From positions 1 through 37,646 of the forward strand of contig CAJUFS010000023.1 in assembly GCA_910585575.1 (NCBI GenBank): a stretch of 37,646 nt of DNA, read 5' to 3'. This DNA comes from an uncultured Adlercreutzia sp. (lineage in GTDB: Bacteria; Actinomycetota; Coriobacteriia; Coriobacteriales; Eggerthellaceae). The notes beneath the pieces are model-generated. The model searched no databases, had not been told where the DNA came from, and worked only from the letters and a program-made list of their open reading frames with translations. Made by a program: the position numbers and the translations under genes. Positions 206 to 9,750 of the stretch are shown piece after piece. Within the stretch, counting starts at the first letter, position 1. Each line of letters begins with the position of its first letter.

Positions 206-2026
206 TCAGGGAAGATCGGGGGCGTCGACCTCATCGGCCGAATCGTCAACGTCCGACTCTGCCAGCCCCTCGGGAGCTTCGGGCAGCGAGGGCTGCTCGG
301 CATCCGTCGAAGACCCTGGCTCGGTAGACTCCGAAGAATCGCCTGGCTCGACCGGCGCCACGGGCTCGCTCGGCCCCTCGGGCTCAACCGGCGCCACAGG
401 CTCGGCAGGCTGAGCGGCGGACGCCGCGTTCTTCGCTGCGTCGATGGCGGCCTGCACGGCCTTCACATAGGCCTCGATAATGGACAGGGACGACCAGGTA
501 GCACCGGACACCGTATCAATGCCCTCAATGGGCTCCCCCGCATCGAGCTTCTCTTGGATCTGCGTTCTCACACCCTTCGTGAAGAGACCCGATCCTTTAA
601 TGGCCTTGTTCAAATACGAGGCGTTCTCGTGGGAATCATAGCGATAAGCAGGATCGATGCGGCCTTCTTCGTCACCGTACACTTCGCCGATTCGCTTGAC
701 CTTGCCGTCGACCACCTCAATCTCAACCACCAAATAATAGGGCGCGTAAGCCGATGGCGCGTCTTCATCGCGGCACAAGGCAGAGCCCTCGTAGATGCCG
801 TCGGGAATCACCAGGGGCTCTTCGCCCTCGTCCGCAGACGGCAACGACGGAACCGTCGGCGTCGTTGGTGTCGTCGGCGCGTCGGGCTCGGCCGGCTTCG
901 TCGTGGTCGGGGCCTTCGGCTTCTCGGCCTTCGAGCCGGCCGCCTCGGCCGACTTGCCCAGCGCCTCGTAGTAGGCACCCAAAATGGCGTCGGAAGAATA
1001 GGTGGCGCCCGAGACGGCATCGACGCTCGTCGGGTTCTTTCCCTTCGCGATGGCACTTTCAATCTGAGCCTTCACGCCGGTATAGGTTTTGCCACTACGC
1101 GTGCGACCGTCGATGGCCCAGTCCAAGTACACCTGGTTCTCGGCCGCGTCCCAGGACAGCTTCTTCTGTCCCTTGTCGCCCGTCGACGCACCCACGATTT
1201 TGGACACGGCCGTCACCTTGCCGCCCTCCACCTTCACATCCACCGCTACGTAATAGGGCTTCCAGGCATCCGGGTTGCCCTCACCGCAGGCCACGTAGCC
1301 GGTCCAGGTGCCGTCGGCCAGGGCATCGATCTCCTTCGAGGCGGCTGGTGCCTTAGTTTTCTTGGGAGCCTTCGGGGCGTCCTCGGAGGCCTTCGGTGCT
1401 GCCTGAGTGGCGACGGCGCTCTTCCCGCCGCTCGCCTTGTTCACTGCATCGGCGTAGGCGTTGTACACCGACACCGACGAATAGGTGGCGCCGGACACCG
1501 CGTCGATGCTGGCCGTGGTCGACCCGGCCGCCAACGCCGCCTCGATCTGAGCCTTGACGCCACGTGATCCCTGAACCGCCTCATCGAGGTAGCGCTGGTT
1601 CTCAGCCGCGTCCCAGTTGAGCCGGGCATCCCCGGCATTGCCCGTCGAGGTGCCGGCAATCTTCGAAAGAGACGCCACCTTGCCGTCAACCACCTGAATG
1701 GTCACAGCCACGTAGTAGGGCTTCCAGCCATCGGGGTTGCCCTCGCCACAGGAAGCGTAGCCCGTCCACGAGCCGTCGGTCAGCGTCAGCGCATCGTCCA
1801 CCGACGCCAGGGGCTCCGTTTCCACCGGCTGCGCGTTCTCGGCCTCGATGGCCGCCGCGTCCACGGTTCCCAGCTCAACCGCTTGGGCCGTTTCGATATC
1901 GTACAAACCGGCATCGAAGACGAGCGGCTCGTAACCCGACACGGCAAAAGCCGTCACACCCACGAACATGAGCAGAGGCAACAGCAGCCACAGCGGGGTT
2001 GTCTTCAACATGCTTACCAGCTTCAT
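206..2026 (-). CDS. Membrane-anchored protein with three FMN-bind domains (three flavinylation sites)
   Basis: The 606-residue product has an N-terminal hydrophobic anchor (about 10-30), so the rest should lie outside the membrane. Three FMN-bind domains follow (about 83-195, 236-357, 406-525). Each ends in the D-x-x-S-G-A-T motif to which ApbE enzymes attach FMN by a phosphoester bond; the acceptor residues would be T181, T342 and T510. Each domain also has a Cys near its start (C93, C247, C418). Pro/Ala/Lys-rich linkers separate the domains and the tail is acidic and proline-rich, as in wall-spanning proteins. The frame opens further upstream, but the ATG at 2026 is preceded by GGAAGGAT and begins the signal segment, while a longer start would run into the 4Fe-4S gene. 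It is the last gene of its unit and probably carries electrons outward from that 4Fe-4S protein. The role is inferred from domains. Confidence 0.88.
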   Translation of the reverse strand: MKLVSMLKTTPLWLLLPLLMFVGVTAFAVSGYEPLVFDAGLYDIETAQAVELGTVDAAAIEAENAQPVETEPLASVDDALTLTDGSWTGYASCGEGNPDGWKPYYVAVTIQVVDGKVASLSKIAGTSTGNAGDARLNWDAAENQRYLDEAVQGSRGVKAQIEAALAAGSTTASIDAVSGATYSSVSVYNAYADAVNKASGGKSAVATQAAPKASEDAPKAPKKTKAPAASKEIDALADGTWTGYVACGEGNPDAWKPYYVAVDVKVEGGKVTAVSKIVGASTGDKGQKKLSWDAAENQVYLDWAIDGRTRSGKTYTGVKAQIESAIAKGKNPTSVDAVSGATYSSDAILGAYYEALGKSAEAAGSKAEKPKAPTTTKPAEPDAPTTPTTPTVPSLPSADEGEEPLVIPDGIYEGSALCRDEDAPSAYAPYYLVVEIEVVDGKVKRIGEVYGDEEGRIDPAYRYDSHENASYLNKAIKGSGLFTKGVRTQIQEKLDAGEPIEGIDTVSGATWSSLSIIEAYVKAVQAAIDAAKNAASAAQPAEPVAPVEPEGPSEPVAPVEPGDSSESTEPGSSTDAEQPSLPEAPEGLAESDVDDSADEVDAPDLP

Positions 2027-2064
2027 GACACCGGATCCTTCCGTATCTTCGTCAGCTCTCTCGT

Positions 2065-3384
2065 CTAAAACGGCCACGGTATTTGGCTCATCACCTCGTT
2101 GAACGAAGGCAGATAGCGCGTCACACCCACCGCCCAGCACAGCGCCAGCAGCGCCGCCGCCTTCACCAGCGTCAGGGCCACACTCGAACCGTGCAGCAGA
2201 TGCCAGGTTTTGCGCGTCTTCCGTACGGGCTTGCCCTTGGCAAGCACCTCTTGCAGCGCGGTTTTACGCGCCACGGCTTCGTCGACTGCCGACGGACGCA
2301 CCTCGGAAGGGACATCGGAAGCCAACAAGGCGACTGCCTGCGCCTGGGTCTGGGCGGCGGCTTCCACAGCGGCGGTGGCCAAAGTCACCTGCGCGTTCTT
2401 CTCGGCCGTGGCATTCGCCTTCTCGAGCGCCGCCTCCAGCTCGGCCTTGCCAGCCGGCTTGGCCACCGCCACCAGGTTCACGTTGGACAGCGGGCACACG
2501 TCGGCGCAGCGTCCGCAGGCAATGCACTCGCCATGGGAAAGCGTGTCGGCATCGGGCCACAGGCCCACGGGGCACACCTCGCGGCACTGGCCGCATTTAT
2601 GGGCGCAGTGGCTGCGCGTGCGCGTGAAGGACGAAACGCCAAGCACAGGCATGAGCGCGAACACCGCCCCCATGGGGCAGAGCACGCGGCAAAAAAACCG
2701 CTCCGAAAGCATCATACCCACCAGGCACAAACCTAAAAGCACGAAAGCCCCTTTGCGAATGCCGTCGAGGGAGCCCGACGTGAACCCCGCAAAGGCCACC
2801 CAGGGGCTGTACCCGGACAGGTCCGCCCACACCCCCACCACACAGGCAACGCCAATGGCGGCCGCAACAGCGTATTTCACCAGGGAAAGCACTTTCATCG
2901 CCGGCTCGGGAATACGGACGTTGCGCAGCGGCGTCTTAGAAAGCACGCCATGCACCACCGTGTAAATCCAATCGCCAAGAGCGCCAAACGCGCAGGCATA
3001 GCCGCAGAAGAACCGACCGAACACCATGGTGAAGGCAAGAAGAGCCACAAGGACAATGACAAAGGAGGTGGGTTCAAAGGCCTGCAAGGCGCCGATCTGC
3101 GTGAAGAGGTATTTCACGCCATTGAAGGCCGCCGCGAACAAGCCGGGGGCCAAAACGAAGAACATAACCTGAATGCCTATGCGCAGCACGCGATGCAAGC
3201 GCGCCACCCACACGCGTTTTTGAGTCGCAGAAAGCCCCTTGGCTTTAGCCTGCTTCTTTCCTGCCGCAACGGCAGCCGAAGCGGGACGATCGGCCGCGGG
3301 CGTCTTGCGCGCGGTGCGCTCACGGGCCGCGCCGCCATCGAGAACGAAATCGTCGCCGTCAAGCGTCAACTCTCCCGCGCTCAT
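2065..3384 (-). CDS. NapH/NosR-type polytopic membrane 4Fe-4S protein
   Basis: The 439-residue product has a basic cytoplasmic N-terminus and about five or six membrane segments. It carries the two membrane Cys motifs of the NapH/NosR/YccM group: C127/C131 (FFCGYACAFGA) and C232/C236 (FFCRVLCPMGA). Two ferredoxin clusters follow: C260-x3-C264-x2-C267-x3-C271 and C287-x2-C290-x2-C293-x3-C297. The N-terminal flavin domain of full NosR is absent here, but the genes on both sides encode separate flavin domains, so the function appears split over three polypeptides. In this family the protein takes electrons from quinol or a cytoplasmic donor and hands them across the membrane. An Ala/Gln-rich stretch (about 310-370) separates the clusters from a last membrane helix. 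The start overlaps the upstream stop as ATGA, so translation is probably coupled. Confidence 0.87.
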   Translation of the reverse strand: MSAGELTLDGDDFVLDGGAARERTARKTPAADRPASAAVAAGKKQAKAKGLSATQKRVWVARLHRVLRIGIQVMFFVLAPGLFAAAFNGVKYLFTQIGALQAFEPTSFVIVLVALLAFTMVFGRFFCGYACAFGALGDWIYTVVHGVLSKTPLRNVRIPEPAMKVLSLVKYAVAAAIGVACVVGVWADLSGYSPWVAFAGFTSGSLDGIRKGAFVLLGLCLVGMMLSERFFCRVLCPMGAVFALMPVLGVSSFTRTRSHCAHKCGQCREVCPVGLWPDADTLSHGECIACGRCADVCPLSNVNLVAVAKPAGKAELEAALEKANATAEKNAQVTLATAAVEAAAQTQAQAVALLASDVPSEVRPSAVDEAVARKTALQEVLAKGKPVRKTRKTWHLLHGSSVALTLVKAAALLALCWAVGVTRYLPSFNEVMSQIPWPF

Positions 3385-3833
3385 GCGGCCGCTCCTTCCA
3401 TCGACTGGCGCAGAGCCTCAGCCGTTCCGTTCAAAATGCCCGCCGAGGTATAGGTGGCGCCAGACACCACGTCCAAGTTCGTCGTCTGCTCCTTCTCAAT
3501 CTGATCGAGCAAAACGATAGCCATGTCGAGCCATGCGTCATCCTCGTGGCTCGCATCGAGGATGTCGACCGAGGTGATGTAGCCGTCCTCGATGGTGGCC
3601 TGCATCTCAACCAAGCCGCCAAACCCTTCGGCCGCACCCGAGAAAACGCCGTCCGTAGGATAGGGCCCGCGATGGGCAGCACGCTCAGCGGCAATAATCT
3701 GCTCCTCCACCGCGGCATCATGGGCCTGGGCCTCGGTAGCCCAAGCGCTAAAAGCGAACAGCACTGCGAGAACGGCCGCCAGATTGACCACCTTCATCAC
3801 ACCGTAGCCGTGTCGTTTGACATCGCTTGTCAT
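3381..3833 (-). CDS. Small exported FMN-bind domain protein
   Basis: The product has about 150 residues: a signal or anchor segment (about 13-36) and a single FMN-bind domain with D111-V-V-S-G-A-T117, T117 being the expected FMN acceptor. The open frame extends to 3899, but that start lies upstream of the operator-like dyad at 3870-3885, inside the promoter, so it is unlikely. The ATG at 3833 has an upstream AGAGGAAGG, slightly far away; an ATG at 3797 right before the hydrophobic segment is the alternative. It is the first gene of a three-gene unit with the 4Fe-4S protein (ATGA overlap) and the three-domain flavin protein. A one-domain flavoprotein beside the membrane 4Fe-4S subunit could be the first acceptor, loading the larger relay. 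That order is inference. Confidence 0.8.
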   Translation of the reverse strand: MTSDVKRHGYGVMKVVNLAAVLAVLFAFSAWATEAQAHDAAVEEQIIAAERAAHRGPYPTDGVFSGAAEGFGGLVEMQATIEDGYITSVDILDASHEDDAWLDMAIVLLDQIEKEQTTNLDVVSGATYTSAGILNGTAEALRQSMEGAAA

Positions 3834-3869
3834 GCTCTTCGCTCGCCGCCTTCCTCTGGAATCAGGCAA

Positions 3870-3917
3870 ATTAGCCTTAGTAAACTCTTTGAAAACCAAA
3901 TGTTAGCATTAGTTAAC
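3870..3917 (-). promoter_or_regulatory. Paired 16-bp GTTA-N8-TAAC-type dyads upstream of the 4Fe-4S/flavin unit
   Basis: ATTAGCCTTAGTAAAC lies at 3870-3885 and GTTAGCATTAGTTAAC at 3902-3917; they share 13 of 16 positions and begin 32 bp apart, about three helical turns. They belong to the same motif family as sites upstream of the large secreted protein and of apbE. I see no convincing -35/-10 pair here. The spacing suggests two dimers on one DNA face. The regulator is unknown. Confidence 0.6.
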
Positions 3918-3968
3918 ATGAATATGCACTCATCTTTTTTCTTTTCGAGCGAAAAACCTGCTGAATGC

Positions 3969-3998
3969 AAAAAAAAGCGACCTCCCGAAGGAGGTCGC
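3969..3998 (-). terminator. Rho-independent terminator of the large secreted flavin protein gene
   Basis: GCGACCTCC (3977-3985) and GGAGGTCGC (3990-3998) form a perfect 9-bp stem with a tetraloop (CGAA on plus, TTCG on minus). On the minus strand it is followed by a run of eight T (3976-3969). It lies about 40 bp past the stop at 4038 and separates that gene from the 4Fe-4S unit. Confidence 0.9.
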
Positions 3999-4037
3999 TC
4001 TCGGCGTGAAACCGAGCTCGTTATGCGACAGCTCGCG

Positions 4038-6599
4038 CTATTTCACCTTGATGGTGAACGTCTTGGTGGCGGAGGCGGCCACGTACTTCTTGGCCACGGC
4101 CTTCGCGTTCACCTTGACGGTCACCTTGTAGGTGCCCTTGGCCAGCTTCTTGGGCACGGTCACCTTGATCTTCTTGTTGCCGGACTTGGCCACCTTGAAG
4201 CCCTTGACGGCCTTGCCCTTGGCGTTGACGGCCTTGGTCACCTTGACGGTGCCGAGCTTGCCGGAGGACGAGGACACCTTGGCGGTGAAGGAGCCGGCCT
4301 TCTTCTTGAGCGAGGCCGCCTTGAAGGAGGAGGCAGAGGCGGAGCCCACCTTCACGGTCTGGGCGCCCACCACCACGGTGACGGTCTTCGTTTCGGATTT
4401 GGCAGGATAGGTGGTGTTGCCCGATGTGGCCTTGGCGGCGCTCACCTTCACCTTCATGGTATAGGTGCCGACCGGCGTGCTCTTCTTCACCGTTACCTTG
4501 CCAGCAGAGGAAAGGGACAGGTACTTCTTGGCATTCTTGCCGTAGGAAGACACCTTGTAGGTTACCTTGCCCTTAGCGCCGGTGGTTTTCAAGCTGAACG
4601 ACTTCGCCGCCTTCAGCTTGCCGCTCTTCACATAGGAGATGCTGTAGGACTTGGACAGACCCGACACCGTCAGCTTCTGGGCAACCGTCTTGACCGTTGT
4701 CGTCGTCGGCTTAGTGGCGGTTGAAGTCGCCGGCTTCGCCGGGTTAGCCGCATTCAGCTTGGCCACCTCGGTGCGGCCCACAAAGGTGCGCGCATCGGGG
4801 CTAAGCGCGTTGTAGGCCGTGCGAGCCGCGGTCACCGCATTATAGTCGGTAGAGCTCATAGCCTTGATCTGGTTGGTCACCGCCGTAGCCGCGGCCATTT
4901 CCTCCAGGCTGTAGGGCAAGCAGAAAATGCCCGTCTGGCCCTTCAAGGGAGCTACTTCTTTCGTATCTCGATCCTGGGTGAGCTTTCCAACACCCAGGCC
5001 AACCACCACGTAGTTGATGCCCGAGCTCTTCTTGATAGTAAGCGTGTTGGTTTTGCTATCCCACTTCACATCATTGCTCTGTACCTCGTCGTCGCCGAGA
5101 GACGAGAGCACACTATGCGCACCAGTGTTCGAAGTGACATATTCGCCTACCTTGCCCGTTTCGCTCTTGGAAAGCCCCCACATCTGCTCAATGTTCAGCT
5201 TTGAAGAGCTCTTGTAGAACGCAAGCGCACTGAGCGGAATATCCTCAGAGAGCTTGTAGGACAGAACATAGTCGCCATTCGCATTGGTGGTTACAGAGGT
5301 TTGATCCCAAACGCTTGCAGCCGAAGATTTGCCAGCATCCATAGTAACAACCAGGTCGTCTGCTACGGATGTAAACAACTGGCCCCAAGAAGCCTTAGAC
5401 AATTCGGCATCAGCGCGGTTAGACAGGGGGAGACTGTAGCCGAAGAGCGCATAGATGGCCTCTTTGATAGTATCGCTCGACTTCGTTGCCGCACTTACCG
5501 TATCAATATCAGTCTTCGCGCCTGCGCCGACTGCCTGCCAAGACATCAGCTCGCGCTGCATCATGATGGCATAGGCAGCTGCCGTGTAAACATCGCGGTT
5601 CTTGGCACCGATGCCCGTGGCCGCCGCATTCAAATCAGTAGCTTGAATTTTGTACTTCGCACCTTCTCCGTCTTCGCCATCCAGCGCAATGTACTGATCA
5701 AACACAAAATAATCGCCGATCTTGTAGGTCACCCTTGCCAGATTGTAGGCGCTTGGATCAGTGAGCGTAAAAGACTTTTCCGCGCAATTCCAGTCCACCA
5801 CTGAAGTGTCGACGGAATTGCTGTTGGCCAGAGTGGGGCCTGCAGGCTTACCGTAACCGCCCCCTCCAGCGCGAGATGCAGCGTTTGCGCTTGCCGTATC
5901 GCTCTCCTCATCGGTCGTTTGAGCCGTAAGCGATTTGGAGACATCGTACCCGATAGGCTTGATAACCGTGTCGTAATGTTGATCCTCTTCATCCCATTCT
6001 TCGACTTCTTCTTCCTTCAGAACACCATCTTCCGCTTTGCAGAGCGTGATAGCGGTTATCTCATAGGGAGCAGTCTCCGAGTCACCATACTTCTCCGCGC
6101 CAGCCAGGCCTACCTTCACTTTATTGCTGTCAGCAGCATTCTGAACGTCGCCGCCTTCAACGCTCACACCTGCGGGCAAGTAGCCCGTAATGTTCGTGGA
6201 CTTCGGCGTGATGGTGCCCCACTGACCGCCGAAGGTGGTGCCCTGGGACGTCAAGTCGACGGCAGTCAGCACGCCGTTCTTCACCGTGAAGGTGAAGAGG
6301 GCATCGTAGTGACCGTAGTGGGCGCCATCGCCCTTGATGGTGGTTTTCCACTGGTAGACGCCATTCGTCACCGTCTTCGGATCCTTCACCCAAGCGCCAT
6401 CGGCCCACATGACGGTCTCGTGCGCCGGGTCATTGGCCGTGGAGGCCAAGAGCTTGTCCGTTGTCTGCGCATTGCCGCCCTCCGCCACCGTCGCGGCCAA
6501 GGCCGTAGCGGGCACCAAGGACATAGCCAGGGCGCCGGCGATCATGAGCGCGGCTGCCTTTTGCGACCACGCCTTCATTCCCAAACTGCTCTCTTTCAT
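4038..6599 (-). CDS. Large secreted protein with one variant flavin-attachment motif and lysine-rich C-terminal repeats
   Basis: The 853-residue product starts with a signal peptide (cleavage probably after ATALA, residue 35). Residues about 66-190 form a domain with a GVYQWKT...FTVKNGVLTAVDL pattern like the opening strands of FMN-bind domains. Around 366-372 it reads D-T-V-S-A-A-T, where the canonical site has S-G-A-T; T372 would be the acceptor. Residues 642-853 are about two Ig-like repeats of some 105 residues, very rich in Lys, Ser, Val and Ala, which would suit binding to anionic wall polymers. The ATG at 6599 follows AAAGGAGATCC, a strong site, so the longer frame to 6701 is rejected; it would also cross the promoter dyad. 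The gene stands alone between operator-like sites and a terminator. I infer an extracellular redox or wall protein of the flavin chain. Confidence 0.8.
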   Translation of the reverse strand: MKESSLGMKAWSQKAAALMIAGALAMSLVPATALAATVAEGGNAQTTDKLLASTANDPAHETVMWADGAWVKDPKTVTNGVYQWKTTIKGDGAHYGHYDALFTFTVKNGVLTAVDLTSQGTTFGGQWGTITPKSTNITGYLPAGVSVEGGDVQNAADSNKVKVGLAGAEKYGDSETAPYEITAITLCKAEDGVLKEEEVEEWDEEDQHYDTVIKPIGYDVSKSLTAQTTDEESDTASANAASRAGGGGYGKPAGPTLANSNSVDTSVVDWNCAEKSFTLTDPSAYNLARVTYKIGDYFVFDQYIALDGEDGEGAKYKIQATDLNAAATGIGAKNRDVYTAAAYAIMMQRELMSWQAVGAGAKTDIDTVSAATKSSDTIKEAIYALFGYSLPLSNRADAELSKASWGQLFTSVADDLVVTMDAGKSSAASVWDQTSVTTNANGDYVLSYKLSEDIPLSALAFYKSSSKLNIEQMWGLSKSETGKVGEYVTSNTGAHSVLSSLGDDEVQSNDVKWDSKTNTLTIKKSSGINYVVVGLGVGKLTQDRDTKEVAPLKGQTGIFCLPYSLEEMAAATAVTNQIKAMSSTDYNAVTAARTAYNALSPDARTFVGRTEVAKLNAANPAKPATSTATKPTTTTVKTVAQKLTVSGLSKSYSISYVKSGKLKAAKSFSLKTTGAKGKVTYKVSSYGKNAKKYLSLSSAGKVTVKKSTPVGTYTMKVKVSAAKATSGNTTYPAKSETKTVTVVVGAQTVKVGSASASSFKAASLKKKAGSFTAKVSSSSGKLGTVKVTKAVNAKGKAVKGFKVAKSGNKKIKVTVPKKLAKGTYKVTVKVNAKAVAKKYVAASATKTFTIKVK

Positions 6600-6683
6600 G
6601 GATCTCCTTTCGTTGACCCCGCTCGCGCCATCTCCCCCTACGCACCAGGACTTCACCCACAAACTTACGCACCTGAGCATGAT

Positions 6684-6791
6684 GTTAGAGATAGCTAACA
6701 CTAATGAACGAGGTCAAGTTACCATAAGATAACTTTTTTGCAAGAGCAGAATTTTGTTAGAGGAAGAAAACTTTTGTTATCTGGAGTTAAC
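6684..6791 (-). promoter_or_regulatory. Promoter region with four GTTA-N8-TAAC dyads before the large secreted flavin protein
   Basis: Four 16-bp dyads are visible: GTTAGAGATAGCTAAC (6684-6699), GTTACCATAAGATAAC (6718-6733), GTTAGAGGAAGAAAAC (6756-6771) and GTTATCTGGAGTTAAC (6776-6791). The last overlaps the stop codon of the EcfT-like gene. A minus-strand TTGACC (6717-6712) touches the second dyad and is followed after 18 bp by TATCTC (6693-6688), which lies within the first dyad. Starts of the first two sites are 34 bp apart. Confidence 0.65.
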
Positions 6792-7575
6792 TCAACTGTT
6801 TGGCGAGAAGAACAACAGCTACCAGGAGAAACGCTAAAAGTACGAGCGCTGCGTCCCGTACGCCCGCCTTCAGCCGCACCAGCGATGTGTGCTTGACCGG
6901 CGCGAAAAACGCTCGACTTGCCACTGCGTAAGCCACATTGTCGCAACGCCGCAAGGCCCCCACAAAAAGCGGTGTAATGACCGGAGCCCACTGCTGCACG
7001 CGGGCGATGAGGCCTCCGCAGTCAAACGACGCCCCGCGACTGGTTTGGGCGGCCTTGATACGCACGGCCTCCTCCCCCAGCAGCGGTACGAACCGCAGAA
7101 CCATAGTGAGCGAAAAGGCCGCTTCGTCCACCTTTACGCCGAACCGCGCCAGAGGACCCATGAACCAGCGGAAAGCCACCGTCAGCCTCACCGGCGCCGT
7201 AGTGATCATCACCGTGGCTGCGCCCAACAGCGCATCGACCAACTTCAGAACGACGAGCAGGGCGCCCCCGACTGCCGACACCAGCGCTGCCGGCGCCCCT
7301 AAGACCTCAGCAAGGGCCACATAGGTACAGATGCCGTTCACGAGAAATATGAATGCCACAAGCGGCATCAGGGGCTTAAGCAGAGCGAGCGCTTGCCGCG
7401 GGCCCTGGCCACTTCCCCACCACAGCAGCAGCGCCGCACCCGTCACCAGGGCAACCGCCCCGCCACCGGAAGCGAGCACCACGGCTCCAAGGAAGAGCAC
7501 GGCCGCGACCAGCTTCGCTCGCGGGTCGCATCGTTGCAGCCACCCGTCTTGCTGACGGAACACGCCAATAGCCAT
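6787..7575 (-). CDS. EcfT/CbiQ-like transmembrane protein
   Basis: The 262-residue product resembles energy-coupling factor T subunits. It begins FRQQDGWLQRCDPRAKL, the typical opening before the first membrane helix, has about six hydrophobic segments, and carries the two coupling-helix signatures A-x-x-S-R-G (AQTSRGASF) and a weaker ASRAFF. In ECF transporters these helices dock on the EcfA ATPases. No ATPase gene and no ordinary substrate-binding S gene lies next to it. The neighbour upstream is a Gx-family protein, a fold related to S components, so the two may pair. The start is the ATG at 7575, which overlaps the preceding TGA by one base (TGATG); the frame opens to 7611 but that would run further into the neighbour. 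Given the ApbE two genes upstream, flavin supply to the outer membrane face is an attractive guess, not shown. Confidence 0.78.
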   Translation of the reverse strand: MAIGVFRQQDGWLQRCDPRAKLVAAVLFLGAVVLASGGGAVALVTGAALLLWWGSGQGPRQALALLKPLMPLVAFIFLVNGICTYVALAEVLGAPAALVSAVGGALLVVLKLVDALLGAATVMITTAPVRLTVAFRWFMGPLARFGVKVDEAAFSLTMVLRFVPLLGEEAVRIKAAQTSRGASFDCGGLIARVQQWAPVITPLFVGALRRCDNVAYAVASRAFFAPVKHTSLVRLKAGVRDAALVLLAFLLVAVVLLAKQLS

Positions 7576-8189
7576 CAGGCATACTCCCACTCGCCATCGG
7601 ACCAGTCGCAACCACTTCGCGTCGAAGCAGCGCCCTCTGCAGGAGCGCTTTGCGCATTGCCGTCAGCGGTTGCGCCGTAGGAGCGATCAGGCAGCGCGTC
7701 GATAACCCGCTGGGCTACCAAACCCGTCGCAGCGCCTGTCACACAAGCGGCCGCCAGCAAAAACGGTGCGGACAAAAGTACTGCCCAGGTGCCCAAGAAC
7801 CAAGCTGCCACCAGCAGCTGTCCCAGATTGTGAGCCACCGCAGCCACCAGCGACACCGCGACCACCGACACACCGATACGCTTGAGCCCCACCATGGTCC
7901 CCAGCGCGAGCATTGTGCCCGCCGCGCTGTAGGCAATCATGAGCGGGCTGCCGAACAGAAAACCCGTGGCCAGCACTTTGAATGCCGCCACCTTCGCCGC
8001 CGTTCTTCCGCCCATCAGAAAAAGCGCGATAACCACTGCGATGTTCGAGAGCCCGAGCTTCATGCCGGGCAACGCCCCGGGCAGCGGAATCATGGTCTCC
8101 AGGAAGCCCAGGACGAGCGCACAGGCAGCCAACAGCGCCGTCCGGGTCAGACGCTGCGCCCGCTCAATTTCCGAGAACGTTGCCGCCAT
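7575..8189 (-). CDS. Gx transporter family membrane protein (Hpre_diP_synt_I type)
   Basis: The 204-residue product has about five membrane segments and the family signature KLGLSNIAVVIALFLMG near residues 40-58. Old annotations call this family heptaprenyl diphosphate synthase component I, but the fold is related to ECF substrate-binding subunits and its members accompany Rnf and ApbE-dependent flavin loci in Firmicutes (EetA/EetB-type pairs in flavin-based extracellular electron transfer). The chosen ATG at 8189 lies one base after the TGA of the NusG-like gene (TGACATG); the frame extends to 8333 but the extra part reads as low-quality sequence antisense to nothing and overlaps that gene. 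The C-terminal 40 residues are polar and cytoplasmic. A role in flavin or quinone handling is inference. Confidence 0.8.
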   Translation of the reverse strand: MAATFSEIERAQRLTRTALLAACALVLGFLETMIPLPGALPGMKLGLSNIAVVIALFLMGGRTAAKVAAFKVLATGFLFGSPLMIAYSAAGTMLALGTMVGLKRIGVSVVAVSLVAAVAHNLGQLLVAAWFLGTWAVLLSAPFLLAAACVTGAATGLVAQRVIDALPDRSYGATADGNAQSAPAEGAASTRSGCDWSDGEWEYA

Positions 8190-8190
8190 G

Positions 8191-8604
8191 TCAGCTTCCC
8201 ACCGTGTCGAAGACGCCCGATGCATCGGCGCCGTCGGCGCCCTCGTCCGCCACGATCTCGATCCACAGCTCGTGGGGCAAGCACACAATTTGCTGCCCTG
8301 CTCGGCTGATCCACCCCTGATCGACGCAGTCATGATTGGGGCAATCGGCGTCCAGCACGCGCACCTGACCGCCCTTTACTTCAACCTCATTCGTTCCCTT
8401 GTCAGTTGTCACCGTCACGGTGGCGTCCTGGCTCAAGGGCAGCTCGCGCACCGTGCCGTCGCTGGCATGGACCACGGCCTTGTCGGCGCTCGTCTGCGCC
8501 CCGAACACCGAGATGGCCGCCACCGAAGCAGCCACGACCACCACCACTACCACGATGATGATCAAACTCAGCCGATTGTTTTTCCCGCTGCCCTGAGTCG
8601 CCAT
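8191..8604 (-). CDS. NusG domain II membrane-anchored protein
   Basis: The 137-residue product has one membrane helix (about 12-35) and an outer NusG_II domain. The hallmark segment is clear: VRVLDADCPNHDC, then GWISRAGQQIVCLPHELWIEI. Cys residues in the CPNHDC and VCLP segments are the usual conserved set. This domain type occurs next to Gx proteins and ApbE in Rnf and extracellular electron transfer loci; its molecular task is not settled. The gene follows apbE by 11 bases, and its Shine-Dalgarno GGGAGG overlaps the apbE stop codon, so the two are probably translated as a coupled pair. Confidence 0.85.
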   Translation of the reverse strand: MATQGSGKNNRLSLIIIVVVVVVVAASVAAISVFGAQTSADKAVVHASDGTVRELPLSQDATVTVTTDKGTNEVEVKGGQVRVLDADCPNHDCVDQGWISRAGQQIVCLPHELWIEIVADEGADGADASGVFDTVGS

Positions 8605-8615
8605 AGCCGCCCTCC

Positions 8616-9680
8616 CTAGAACAGCTCGAACGGCGCTTGGGCGGACAGGGTAATTTCACCGGCGTTGTCCACGACGAGGCCCTCGAATCGGTCGTCTTCG
8701 TTCACGAGCGCCAGGGCTTCATCGCGGCCCATCAGGAACAGCATGGTGGCGTAGGCGTCCCCGTCGGTCGAAGAGTCGGTGAGCAGCGACGAACTGACGA
8801 CATCGGTGACCACGGGATAGCCCGTACGCGGATCGAGAATGTGGTAGTACAGCACGCCCTCTTCGGTGAACTGCCGCTCGTACAACCCGCTCGTCACCAC
8901 CGAGCCGTTCGTGCAGGGCACGGCGGCGATAACGTCCTGGGCCGAACCGTTCGGATCTTGAATGCCCACATTCCACGGGCTGCCGTCGGGCTTCGTGCCC
9001 AGCACGGCCACGTTGCCGCCCAAATTGAGGCAGGCGCTTTCCACGCCCTGCTCGGCCAAAAGCTGCTTCAGGTCATCGGCGATGTAGCCCTTGGCAATGC
9101 CGCCCAAATCAATTTTCGCCTGGGGATCGGACAACTGCACGGTGGTTCCCTCCACCGACACGCCTCGGTAGTCGATATGGGTGATGGCTTCCGCAATGGC
9201 CTCATCAGCGGGGCGCACGCCTTCCTTGAAATCCCAAAGAGAGGACACCGAGCCGATAGTGATGTCGAACAGGCCCTCCGAGGCCTCGCAATAGGCAAGC
9301 GCCTGCGTGATAATGTCGGCCGTTTCACGGGCCACCTCGACCGGCTGCCCCGCGGCCTCGTTGATGCGCCACACATCCGAGCCCTCCACCGTGCGCGAGA
9401 AGGTGTTCTCGAAGAAGCGGCAACGTTCAATGGCGGCGTCAAGCGCCTCCTGAGTACCGTAGATCGTCAAGGTGATGACAGTATCGAAGAGGAATTCCGT
9501 GGCCGTCAGCGGCTCGGTACCCTCAGCCCCGCCGTCGTTCGCGCCCGTAGCGGGCAGCGACGCCTGTTCCGTTGCGGCGTCGGCCGCCGTCGAGCAAGCG
9601 CTCAAGAGCGATGAAGTGGTCAGCGATGCCGCCGCCAGCATCATTCCTCGCGCGAAAACGCGCCGCGTCATCAGGGCCAA
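8616..9680 (-). CDS. apbE: ApbE-type FAD:protein FMN transferase (lipoprotein)
   Basis: The enzyme splits FAD and links FMN to the Thr of D-x-x-S/T-G-A-T motifs in exported proteins, using Mg. Signatures include KIDLGGIAKGYIADDL, NLGGNVAVLG, the HILDPRTGYPV segment, and DGDAYATMLFLMG near the C-terminus (metal-binding D and T). Length, 354 residues, is normal for the family. The N-terminus combines TRRVF, a twin-arginine-like pair, with a lipobox LLSAC (C29), so the protein should be a lipid-anchored enzyme on the outer membrane face. The start appears to be TTG at 9680: AAAAAGGAG lies 9 bases upstream of it but 18 bases upstream of the ATG at 9671. It leads a four-gene unit with the NusG II, Gx and EcfT-like genes. 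Likely substrates are the three flavin-domain proteins encoded just downstream. Confidence 0.93.
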   Translation of the reverse strand: MALMTRRVFARGMMLAAASLTTSSLLSACSTAADAATEQASLPATGANDGGAEGTEPLTATEFLFDTVITLTIYGTQEALDAAIERCRFFENTFSRTVEGSDVWRINEAAGQPVEVARETADIITQALAYCEASEGLFDITIGSVSSLWDFKEGVRPADEAIAEAITHIDYRGVSVEGTTVQLSDPQAKIDLGGIAKGYIADDLKQLLAEQGVESACLNLGGNVAVLGTKPDGSPWNVGIQDPNGSAQDVIAAVPCTNGSVVTSGLYERQFTEEGVLYYHILDPRTGYPVVTDVVSSSLLTDSSTDGDAYATMLFLMGRDEALALVNEDDRFEGLVVDNAGEITLSAQAPFELF

Positions 9681-9698: not shown

Positions 9699-9750
9699 GT
9701 TTACTATACCTAACTTATGGCAGTATAGCGAAGTTACCCAGAGGTAACAA
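9699..9750 (-). promoter_or_regulatory. apbE promoter with two GTTA-N8-TAAC dyads
   Basis: GTTACCCAGAGGTAAC (9733-9748, arms GTTACC/GGTAAC perfect) and GTTAGGTATAGTAAAC read on the minus strand (9714-9699) begin 34 bp apart, the same spacing as at the large secreted protein gene. Two promoter readings are possible: TTGTTA (9750-9745), 17 bp, TATACT (9727-9722), in which one dyad covers the -35 box; or a TATAGT (9708-9703) inside the lower dyad with a weak -35 abutting the upper dyad, which would match the geometry at 6684-6733. Confidence 0.65.

Follow-up and report, generated by a model that had tools for sequence, protein, structure and literature searches.

A NapH-like flavinylation island of an uncultured Adlercreutzia with operators in common with feoAB, suggesting a role in ferric iron reduction

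Meheust et al. (2021) described NapH-like systems, defined by a flavinylation gene cluster that includes a gene for a PF12801 protein, as well as multi-flavin proteins that occur with large unannotated surface proteins; the sections of that study considered here state that most NapH-like systems have no known reaction and most multi-flavin clusters no known role (PMC8238504). The same study defines the Listeria-type extracellular electron transfer (EET) system by a cluster that encodes a membrane NADH dehydrogenase (K03885), and cites the PepSY-type clusters of Shewanella and Caulobacter as Fur repressed. In Listeria, EetB (Gx family) and FmnA (a relative of EcfT) serve the export of flavin adenine dinucleotide (FAD) for ApbE-type flavinylation (PMC9973259). 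Concerning the carriers, Tong et al. (2023) studied a Streptomyces protein that bears three covalent flavin mononucleotides (FMN) with a single potential of -184 mV (PMC10339131), and a 2024 survey described beads-on-a-string and permuted multi-FMN proteins (PMC11334425). Here, we analyse a flavinylation island in a 37,646-nucleotide contig (CAJUFS010000023.1, hereafter the window) of an uncultured Adlercreutzia sp. of the family Eggerthellaceae, for which an earlier reading of the letters alone (the sequence-only reading) had proposed a flavinylation-based EET island with its own ApbE.

In the open PubMed Central (PMC) literature, including the accessible parts of PMC8238504, PMC11334425 and PMC10339131, we found no NapH-like system tied to an iron box. 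The same literature yielded no paper joining flavinylation with DtxR or Eggerthella with flavinylation and FMN-binding, and none on the iron/DtxR regulon of Coriobacteria or on DtxR with feoB in Eggerthella. The machinery is known, whereas its control by an iron box and its purpose were not found in print.

The island consists of eight minus-strand genes (206-9680) organized in three transcription units. In the 5' to 3' order of that strand, these are apbE, NusG II, Gx and EcfT (9680-6787), the gene of a large secreted protein (6599-4038), and the genes of a small FMN_bind protein, a NapH-like 4Fe-4S protein and a triple FMN_bind protein (3833-206). A palindrome, GTTA-N8-TAAC, lies upstream of all three units. 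The window contains five exact copies (3902, 6684, 6718, 6776 and 9733), all of them in the island, where 0.04 would be expected from shuffles. The operators are often paired at a distance of 30-34 bp, some of the partners being weak. The sites are the following (palindromes are given without strand):

9733-9748: exact GTTA-N8-TAAC operator of the apbE unit
9699-9714: second, imperfect operator of the apbE unit (matrix score 12.1)
6776-6791: exact operator 5' of the large protein
6718-6733: exact operator 5' of the large protein
6684-6699: exact operator 5' of the large protein
3902-3917: exact operator of the FMN_bind/NapH/triple-FMN unit
3870-3885: possible weak second operator of the same unit (matrix scores 9.7 and 10.7)
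9722-9750, minus strand: promoter-like TTGTTA-17-TATACT, its first hexamer and spacer overlapped by the operator at 9733 (three such sites found vs 2.1 in shuffles)

Among the nine genomes of the family that carry the island, seven contain exact sites, 18 in total, each located by position upstream of an island unit. A matrix was built from these 18 sites only and applied to the 30 feoB loci that scored best in the family, which were chosen independently of the site; the locus of the window genome was dropped, its contig starting inside feoB, which left 29. A site scoring at least 12 was present within 1 kb upstream of feoB in 25 of the 29 genomes (three of the 29 being island genomes), compared with 0.05 in 20 rounds of dinucleotide shuffles, and a site scoring at least 16 in 15 of them, compared with 0. 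Forty other family loci (132,871 bases) gave none at 12 or above. Moreover, the inner positions of the half-site, which had not been used in site picking, show the same preferences in island and feo sites (A/G, C, T/C, A/T). The refined palindrome GTTARCYNNRGYTAAC occurs 32 times in 25 of 138 family genomes, against 14 for the reversed control; 15 of these sites lie by position upstream of feoA or feoB (12 genomes), and two are in the island of G012. In the window genome itself, contig C40 ends with feoA, then the site GTTAGTTTGAACTAAC and the first part of feoB, which overlaps the start of contig C21. Because the operator is common to the island and feoAB, the island most likely belongs to the Feo (DtxR-type) regulon of the family, an assignment that is well supported. 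The refined site was also seen 5' of similar 185-aa open reading frames (ORFs) in the related genomes G033 and G034 (L103, L104).

On contig C21, past feoB, we found a gene for a 126-aa protein with both DtxR domains. A DtxR-family gene is present in all nine island genomes, and in five of them it lies within about 4 kb of feoB on one contig. Fur was considered as the regulator and set aside: these are draft genomes, of which four have a Fur-family gene and five, including the window genome, give no Fur-family match. The likely metal residues of the DtxR-family protein (Asp10, Glu13, His80, Cys103, Glu106 and His107) are a mixture of the MntR and DtxR types. The IdeR/DtxR box of other Actinobacteria differs in spacing from the island box, which is therefore called DtxR-type by genomic context only. 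The DtxR-family protein is the candidate that would bind the box and respond to metal.

All the genes named by the sequence-only reading were found, on the minus strand as stated, with Pfam matches for ApbE, NusG_II, Gx, EcfT, FMN_bind and Fer4_5:

8616-9680, minus strand: apbE, secreted FAD:protein FMN transferase (Pfam ApbE, 279 bits)
8191-8604, minus strand: NusG II domain protein, EetA-like (Pfam NusG_II, 107 bits)
7575-8189, minus strand: Gx-type membrane protein, EetB-like, FAD-export S component by homology (Pfam Hpre_diP_synt_I, 118 bits)
6787-7575, minus strand: EcfT-like transmembrane component, FmnA-like by homology (Pfam CbiQ, 88 bits)
4038-6599, minus strand: large secreted protein, 853 aa from ATG 6599, with a repeat-rich C-terminus and one D-x-x-S-A-A-T site (T372)
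3973-4002, minus strand: terminator-like hairpin of 13 pairs with a T run, 3' of the large protein gene (11 such sites overall vs 9.7 in shuffles, not above)
3381-3833, minus strand: small FMN_bind protein with leader/anchor and the flavin site DVVSGAT (Pfam FMN_bind, 45 bits)
2065-3384, minus strand: NapH-like membrane 4Fe-4S protein with two 4Fe-4S motifs (Pfam Fer4_5, 47.8 bits, cut-off 22)
206-2026, minus strand: triple FMN_bind protein with an N-terminal membrane segment and Pro/Glu-rich linkers (start set by alignment with G002)

The apbE start codon is uncertain (TTG 9680, with ATG 9671 possible). Two further profile matches fell under their cut-offs, ECF_trnsprt for the Gx protein (24 bits, Pfam) and NapH/MauN for the NapH-like protein (56 bits against 213, NCBIfam), and the 644-aa ORF of the triple protein contains three Pfam FMN_bind stretches (65 bits). 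A PF07456 S-like protein and an EcfT-like protein adjoin apbE, the composition of an EetB/FmnA-type FAD export pair, transport being predicted from sequence. Since the Listeria proteins of these families export FAD for flavinylation, the first unit probably provisions flavin. The PF12801 protein sits beside the ApbE and FMN_bind genes, and the FMN_bind domain is found in two further genes of the locus.

The motif D-x-x-S-[GA]-A-T occurs three times in the triple protein, once in the small and once in the large protein, and in none of the other five island proteins; residue shuffles give 0.010, 0.001 and 0.013, respectively, so that the five sites claimed earlier in three proteins stand far above expectation. 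The residue numbers given with them were correct for T181, T342 and T510, counted from Met39 of the ORF, whereas T117 of the small protein fits no visible start (T127 from ATG 3833, T115 from ATG 3797). Covalent FMN on these proteins is predicted from the motifs. The weak point of the five-site observation is the large protein, in which no Pfam FMN_bind match was found. Among its six relatives, two match over the cut-off of 22 (23.1 and 23.4 bits), with the C-terminal half of the profile only, and one is just under (20.7). In the alignment of the N-terminal part of seven sequences, the window's included, D366, A371 and T372 of the flavin site are invariant (7/7), as are D91, H94, Y98, W127, N334 and R335. 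Profile comparison with FMN_bind gave a match limited to 22 columns at the flavin site (probability 15.8). An AlphaFold2 model of residues 36-620 from 7 sequences was poor (mean pLDDT 59.5), and a shorter one poorer still (47.9). Foldseek with the former found no match in the PDB at E 0.001 or better, its top rows looking spurious; the order strand, strand, strand, helix, site, helix in this model is compatible with an interrupted FMN_bind fold but proves nothing. The simplest reading is that the large protein may carry an FMN_bind-like domain with a long insertion. A search with anti-phage models gave no match for it.

A NapH ortholog (E below 1e-80) is present in nine of the 138 family genomes, the window's included, the next best match being at 3.1e-18. 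In the other eight loci (tblastn, 1e-3), we found the small FMN_bind protein and NapH in 8/8, ApbE and the triple-FMN protein in 7/8, NusG II and Gx in 6/8, and EcfT in 5/8. Parts are missing in G117 (4,248 bases) and G127 (which ends inside apbE) because the contigs break off; at the same threshold, EcfT was not found in the G059 locus. The co-inheritance proposed earlier therefore holds, the other parts lying beside the NapH gene where contigs reach. Disruption in most relatives had been named as the outcome that would speak against it: the island is indeed absent from most relatives, but its parts stay together where it is present. The Gx gene is opposite in strand to apbE in G059 and G078 (L083:4314 and 11465; L081), and that of G059 has its own exact site upstream.

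A large protein of the window type adjoins the island genes in G002, G117, G078, G127 and G059, and lies about 7 kb away in G012, which has an additional protein with Tp47 domains only. In G014 and G097, its place is taken by a protein with FMN_bind, Tp47 a and c, Shr-like and FIVAR domains. The Shr-like hemoglobin-interacting domain scores 23.9 and 26.6 bits, just over the cut-off of 22.3, and hints at the use of iron from host proteins in these two genomes only. The Tp47 'a' domains (L084:11388-15437, L085:6222-10097, L086:9429-11354) contain D-x-V-[ST]-R-A-T, which is close to the flavinylation motif, and the two longer of these three proteins also contain D-V-[VF]-T-S-A-T; such domains are possibly an unrecognised class of ApbE substrates. 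Of 396 genomes drawn across the class, nine had a NapH ortholog at E 1e-40 or better; four of the nine belong to two other families. Two of these four loci have the full set, with a Tp47-type protein first and a site upstream of it (14.1 and 11.1).

Within Adlercreutzia, the island is present in two of nine genomes. Six of the seven island-free ones have a VTT-domain gene followed, within about 140-360 bp and in the same direction, by an aldolase-like gene; in G006, the seventh, they are about 0.5 kb apart and point in opposite directions. In G002, the nearest island-bearing relative, both genes flank the island; in the window, it is bounded by the VTT gene on one side and, on the other, by the same aldolase-like gene, of which the window includes the first 23 bases before its end. 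The window genome and G002 are 96-99% identical in VTT, Ddl, FeoB and DtxR and 75% in one flanking protein, compared with 55-89% for the island proteins, a contrast compatible with separate acquisition, with allele exchange or with fast evolution. The GC content of the island is unremarkable (0.61 vs 0.64 here; 0.64 vs 0.63 in G002), and a search of 72,556 plasmid records at E 1e-20 gave no relative of the NapH protein. In Adlercreutzia, both genomes with the island have two ApbE genes and five without it have one each, in agreement with an island that brings its own ApbE; outside the genus, however, G012, G078 and G127 gave a single match.

The Pfam search of the eight proteins found no oxidoreductase gene in the island. 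The lack of a terminal reductase noted by the sequence-only reading is thus true of the island itself but not of the genome, in which contigs C63, C90 and C38 each encode a reductase with FAD_binding_2 and FMN_bind domains. Contig C10 encodes a further FMN_bind protein. The exact operator was not found on any of these contigs, although the assembly extends only about 50 bases upstream of the C90 gene. Within 20 kb of contig C10 (22000-41800, L094) we also observed a second apbE, an FMN_bind protein, a NapH paralog and an ORF with four CxxCH motifs, which are probably a separate electron-transfer locus. Four further exact sites of the palindrome, on contigs C5, C12, C29 and C46 (L087:3017, L088:3013, L089:3005, L091:3023), are near ORFs with no evident iron role and may be due to chance.

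The reading that we favour, with a probability of roughly 0.55, is a DtxR-controlled NapH-like flavinylation system, induced at low iron, in which flavins at the surface supply FeoAB by reducing ferric iron. With ample metal, GTTARCY-NN-RGYTAAC-type boxes at the promoters of feoAB and of the three island units would be bound by the DtxR-family repressor whose gene lies near feoB; when iron is low, the boxes would clear. From the apbE unit, the Gx/EcfT pair would export FAD, and ApbE would attach FMN to the small and triple FMN_bind proteins and probably to the large surface protein. The NapH-like protein would take electrons, probably from menaquinol, and pass them on through its 4Fe-4S clusters. 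They would go to the small FMN_bind protein, the triple-flavin protein, tethered to the membrane and extending into the wall, and the surface protein, the last of which would reduce Fe(III); FeoAB would import Fe(II). Gene content, motif conservation, co-inheritance and the operator common with feoB were observed directly in the genomes; we infer the identity of the box-binding protein, the response to metal, flavinylation, the electron path and iron as the substrate. The acceptor had been left open by the sequence-only reading, and iron is now indicated because the operator is common to the island and feoAB; surface reduction of ferric iron for Feo seems the most economical function.

Several observations weigh against this reading. 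In the G097 island no site reaches a score of 9, and in that of G127 there is a single imperfect one (12.4), before apbE. The whole window genome has ten exact sites against eight for the reversed control, and therefore the clustering, not the total, is the signal. Of the 32 refined family sites, 15 lie outside both the feo loci and the islands (13 of these 15 were inspected). Two of the four NapH loci of other families consist of small FMN_bind, NapH and ApbE only, with no site near. Finally, no iron transporter gene is among the island genes, and regulation tells when a system is made, not what it does.

The best of the rival explanations is iron-sparing respiration, in which flavins would carry electrons outward to a respiratory acceptor and would be induced at low iron as a substitute for heme-rich reductases, iron being the signal and not the substrate. 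The same sites in the island and at feoB fit this explanation too, Meheust et al. suggested that flavinylation may be advantageous in iron-poor settings (PMC8238504), and three flavinylation-type FAD reductases are encoded elsewhere in the genome. However, the two 4Fe-4S motifs of the NapH-like protein itself would limit the saving of iron, and the contigs of the FAD reductases lack the exact operator; we consider it unlikely. Somewhat less probable is ordinary respiratory EET to soluble or mineral acceptors, as framed by the sequence-only reading, with a metal box that is minor or incidental. The parts do resemble the Listeria set (ApbE, EetA/EetB/FmnA-like and multi-FMN proteins), and NapH-like proteins often serve respiratory oxidoreductases (PMC8238504). 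Nevertheless, such an oxidoreductase gene is missing from the island, and the box, often paired, stands at every island unit and is the Feo box. That the repressor senses manganese, so that the island answers to manganese status, we hold to be very improbable. Its solved relatives by sequence include several MntR proteins, and Asp10 aligns with an MntR Asp that is presumably a metal ligand; yet Cys103 of the C-x-x-E-H motif, invariant in four aligned sequences, is of what we take to be the DtxR/IdeR type, and the targets across the family are feoA and feoB.

If the favoured reading of a DtxR-controlled ferric reductase is correct, some gut Actinomycetota win ferric iron with protein-bound flavins where host and microbes compete for it. 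The feoAB-type operator would give a NapH-like, multi-flavin system a concrete purpose that needs no terminal reductase, and, within the class, the iron box may help to tell assimilatory flavinylation clusters from respiratory ones. A broader and more tentative proposal, to which we give less than even odds, is a reductive iron uptake that spans the Gram-positive wall under a DtxR-family repressor. A covalent-flavin chain would lead from a NapH-like quinol oxidase, with the triple-flavin protein as the wire across the wall, to interchangeable surface proteins as substrate-specific tips (an undescribed interrupted FMN_bind-like family, or Tp47/Shr-domain proteins), which, on the outer side of the wall, would take ferric or heme-protein iron and reduce it for FeoAB.

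In comparison with known systems, the island is close in build to the NapH-like flavinylation systems (PMC8238504): a PF12801 membrane Fe-S protein, an FMN_bind protein and ApbE are clustered, and multi-FMN and large unannotated surface proteins occur in both. The iron links given in the sections of PMC8238504 considered here concern MsrQ-like, PepSY-like, DUF3570, NQR/RNF-like and P19 clusters, whereas the island is NapH-like with a feoAB-type operator. With the flavin-based EET locus of Listeria (PMC9973259), it has in common an ApbE-type transferase, homologs of EetA, EetB and FmnA, and a multi-FMN protein. It differs in that none of its eight proteins matches an NADH dehydrogenase (Pfam, NCBIfam), a NapH-like protein being present instead, and in that its triple FMN protein reaches 48.3 bits where the NCBIfam cut-off for PplA is 325. 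SaFMN3 and CbFMN4 (PMC10339131) resemble the triple protein in having three or four covalent FMN domains per protein; those were studied as purified proteins, and the wall or iron context proposed here is not part of that report as far as its accessible text goes. The PepSY-type clusters likewise place flavinylated electron transfer under an iron regulator, as we propose for the island, but they are Gram-negative, with a PepSY carrier and Fur, whereas the island has a NapH-like carrier and a DtxR-family candidate.

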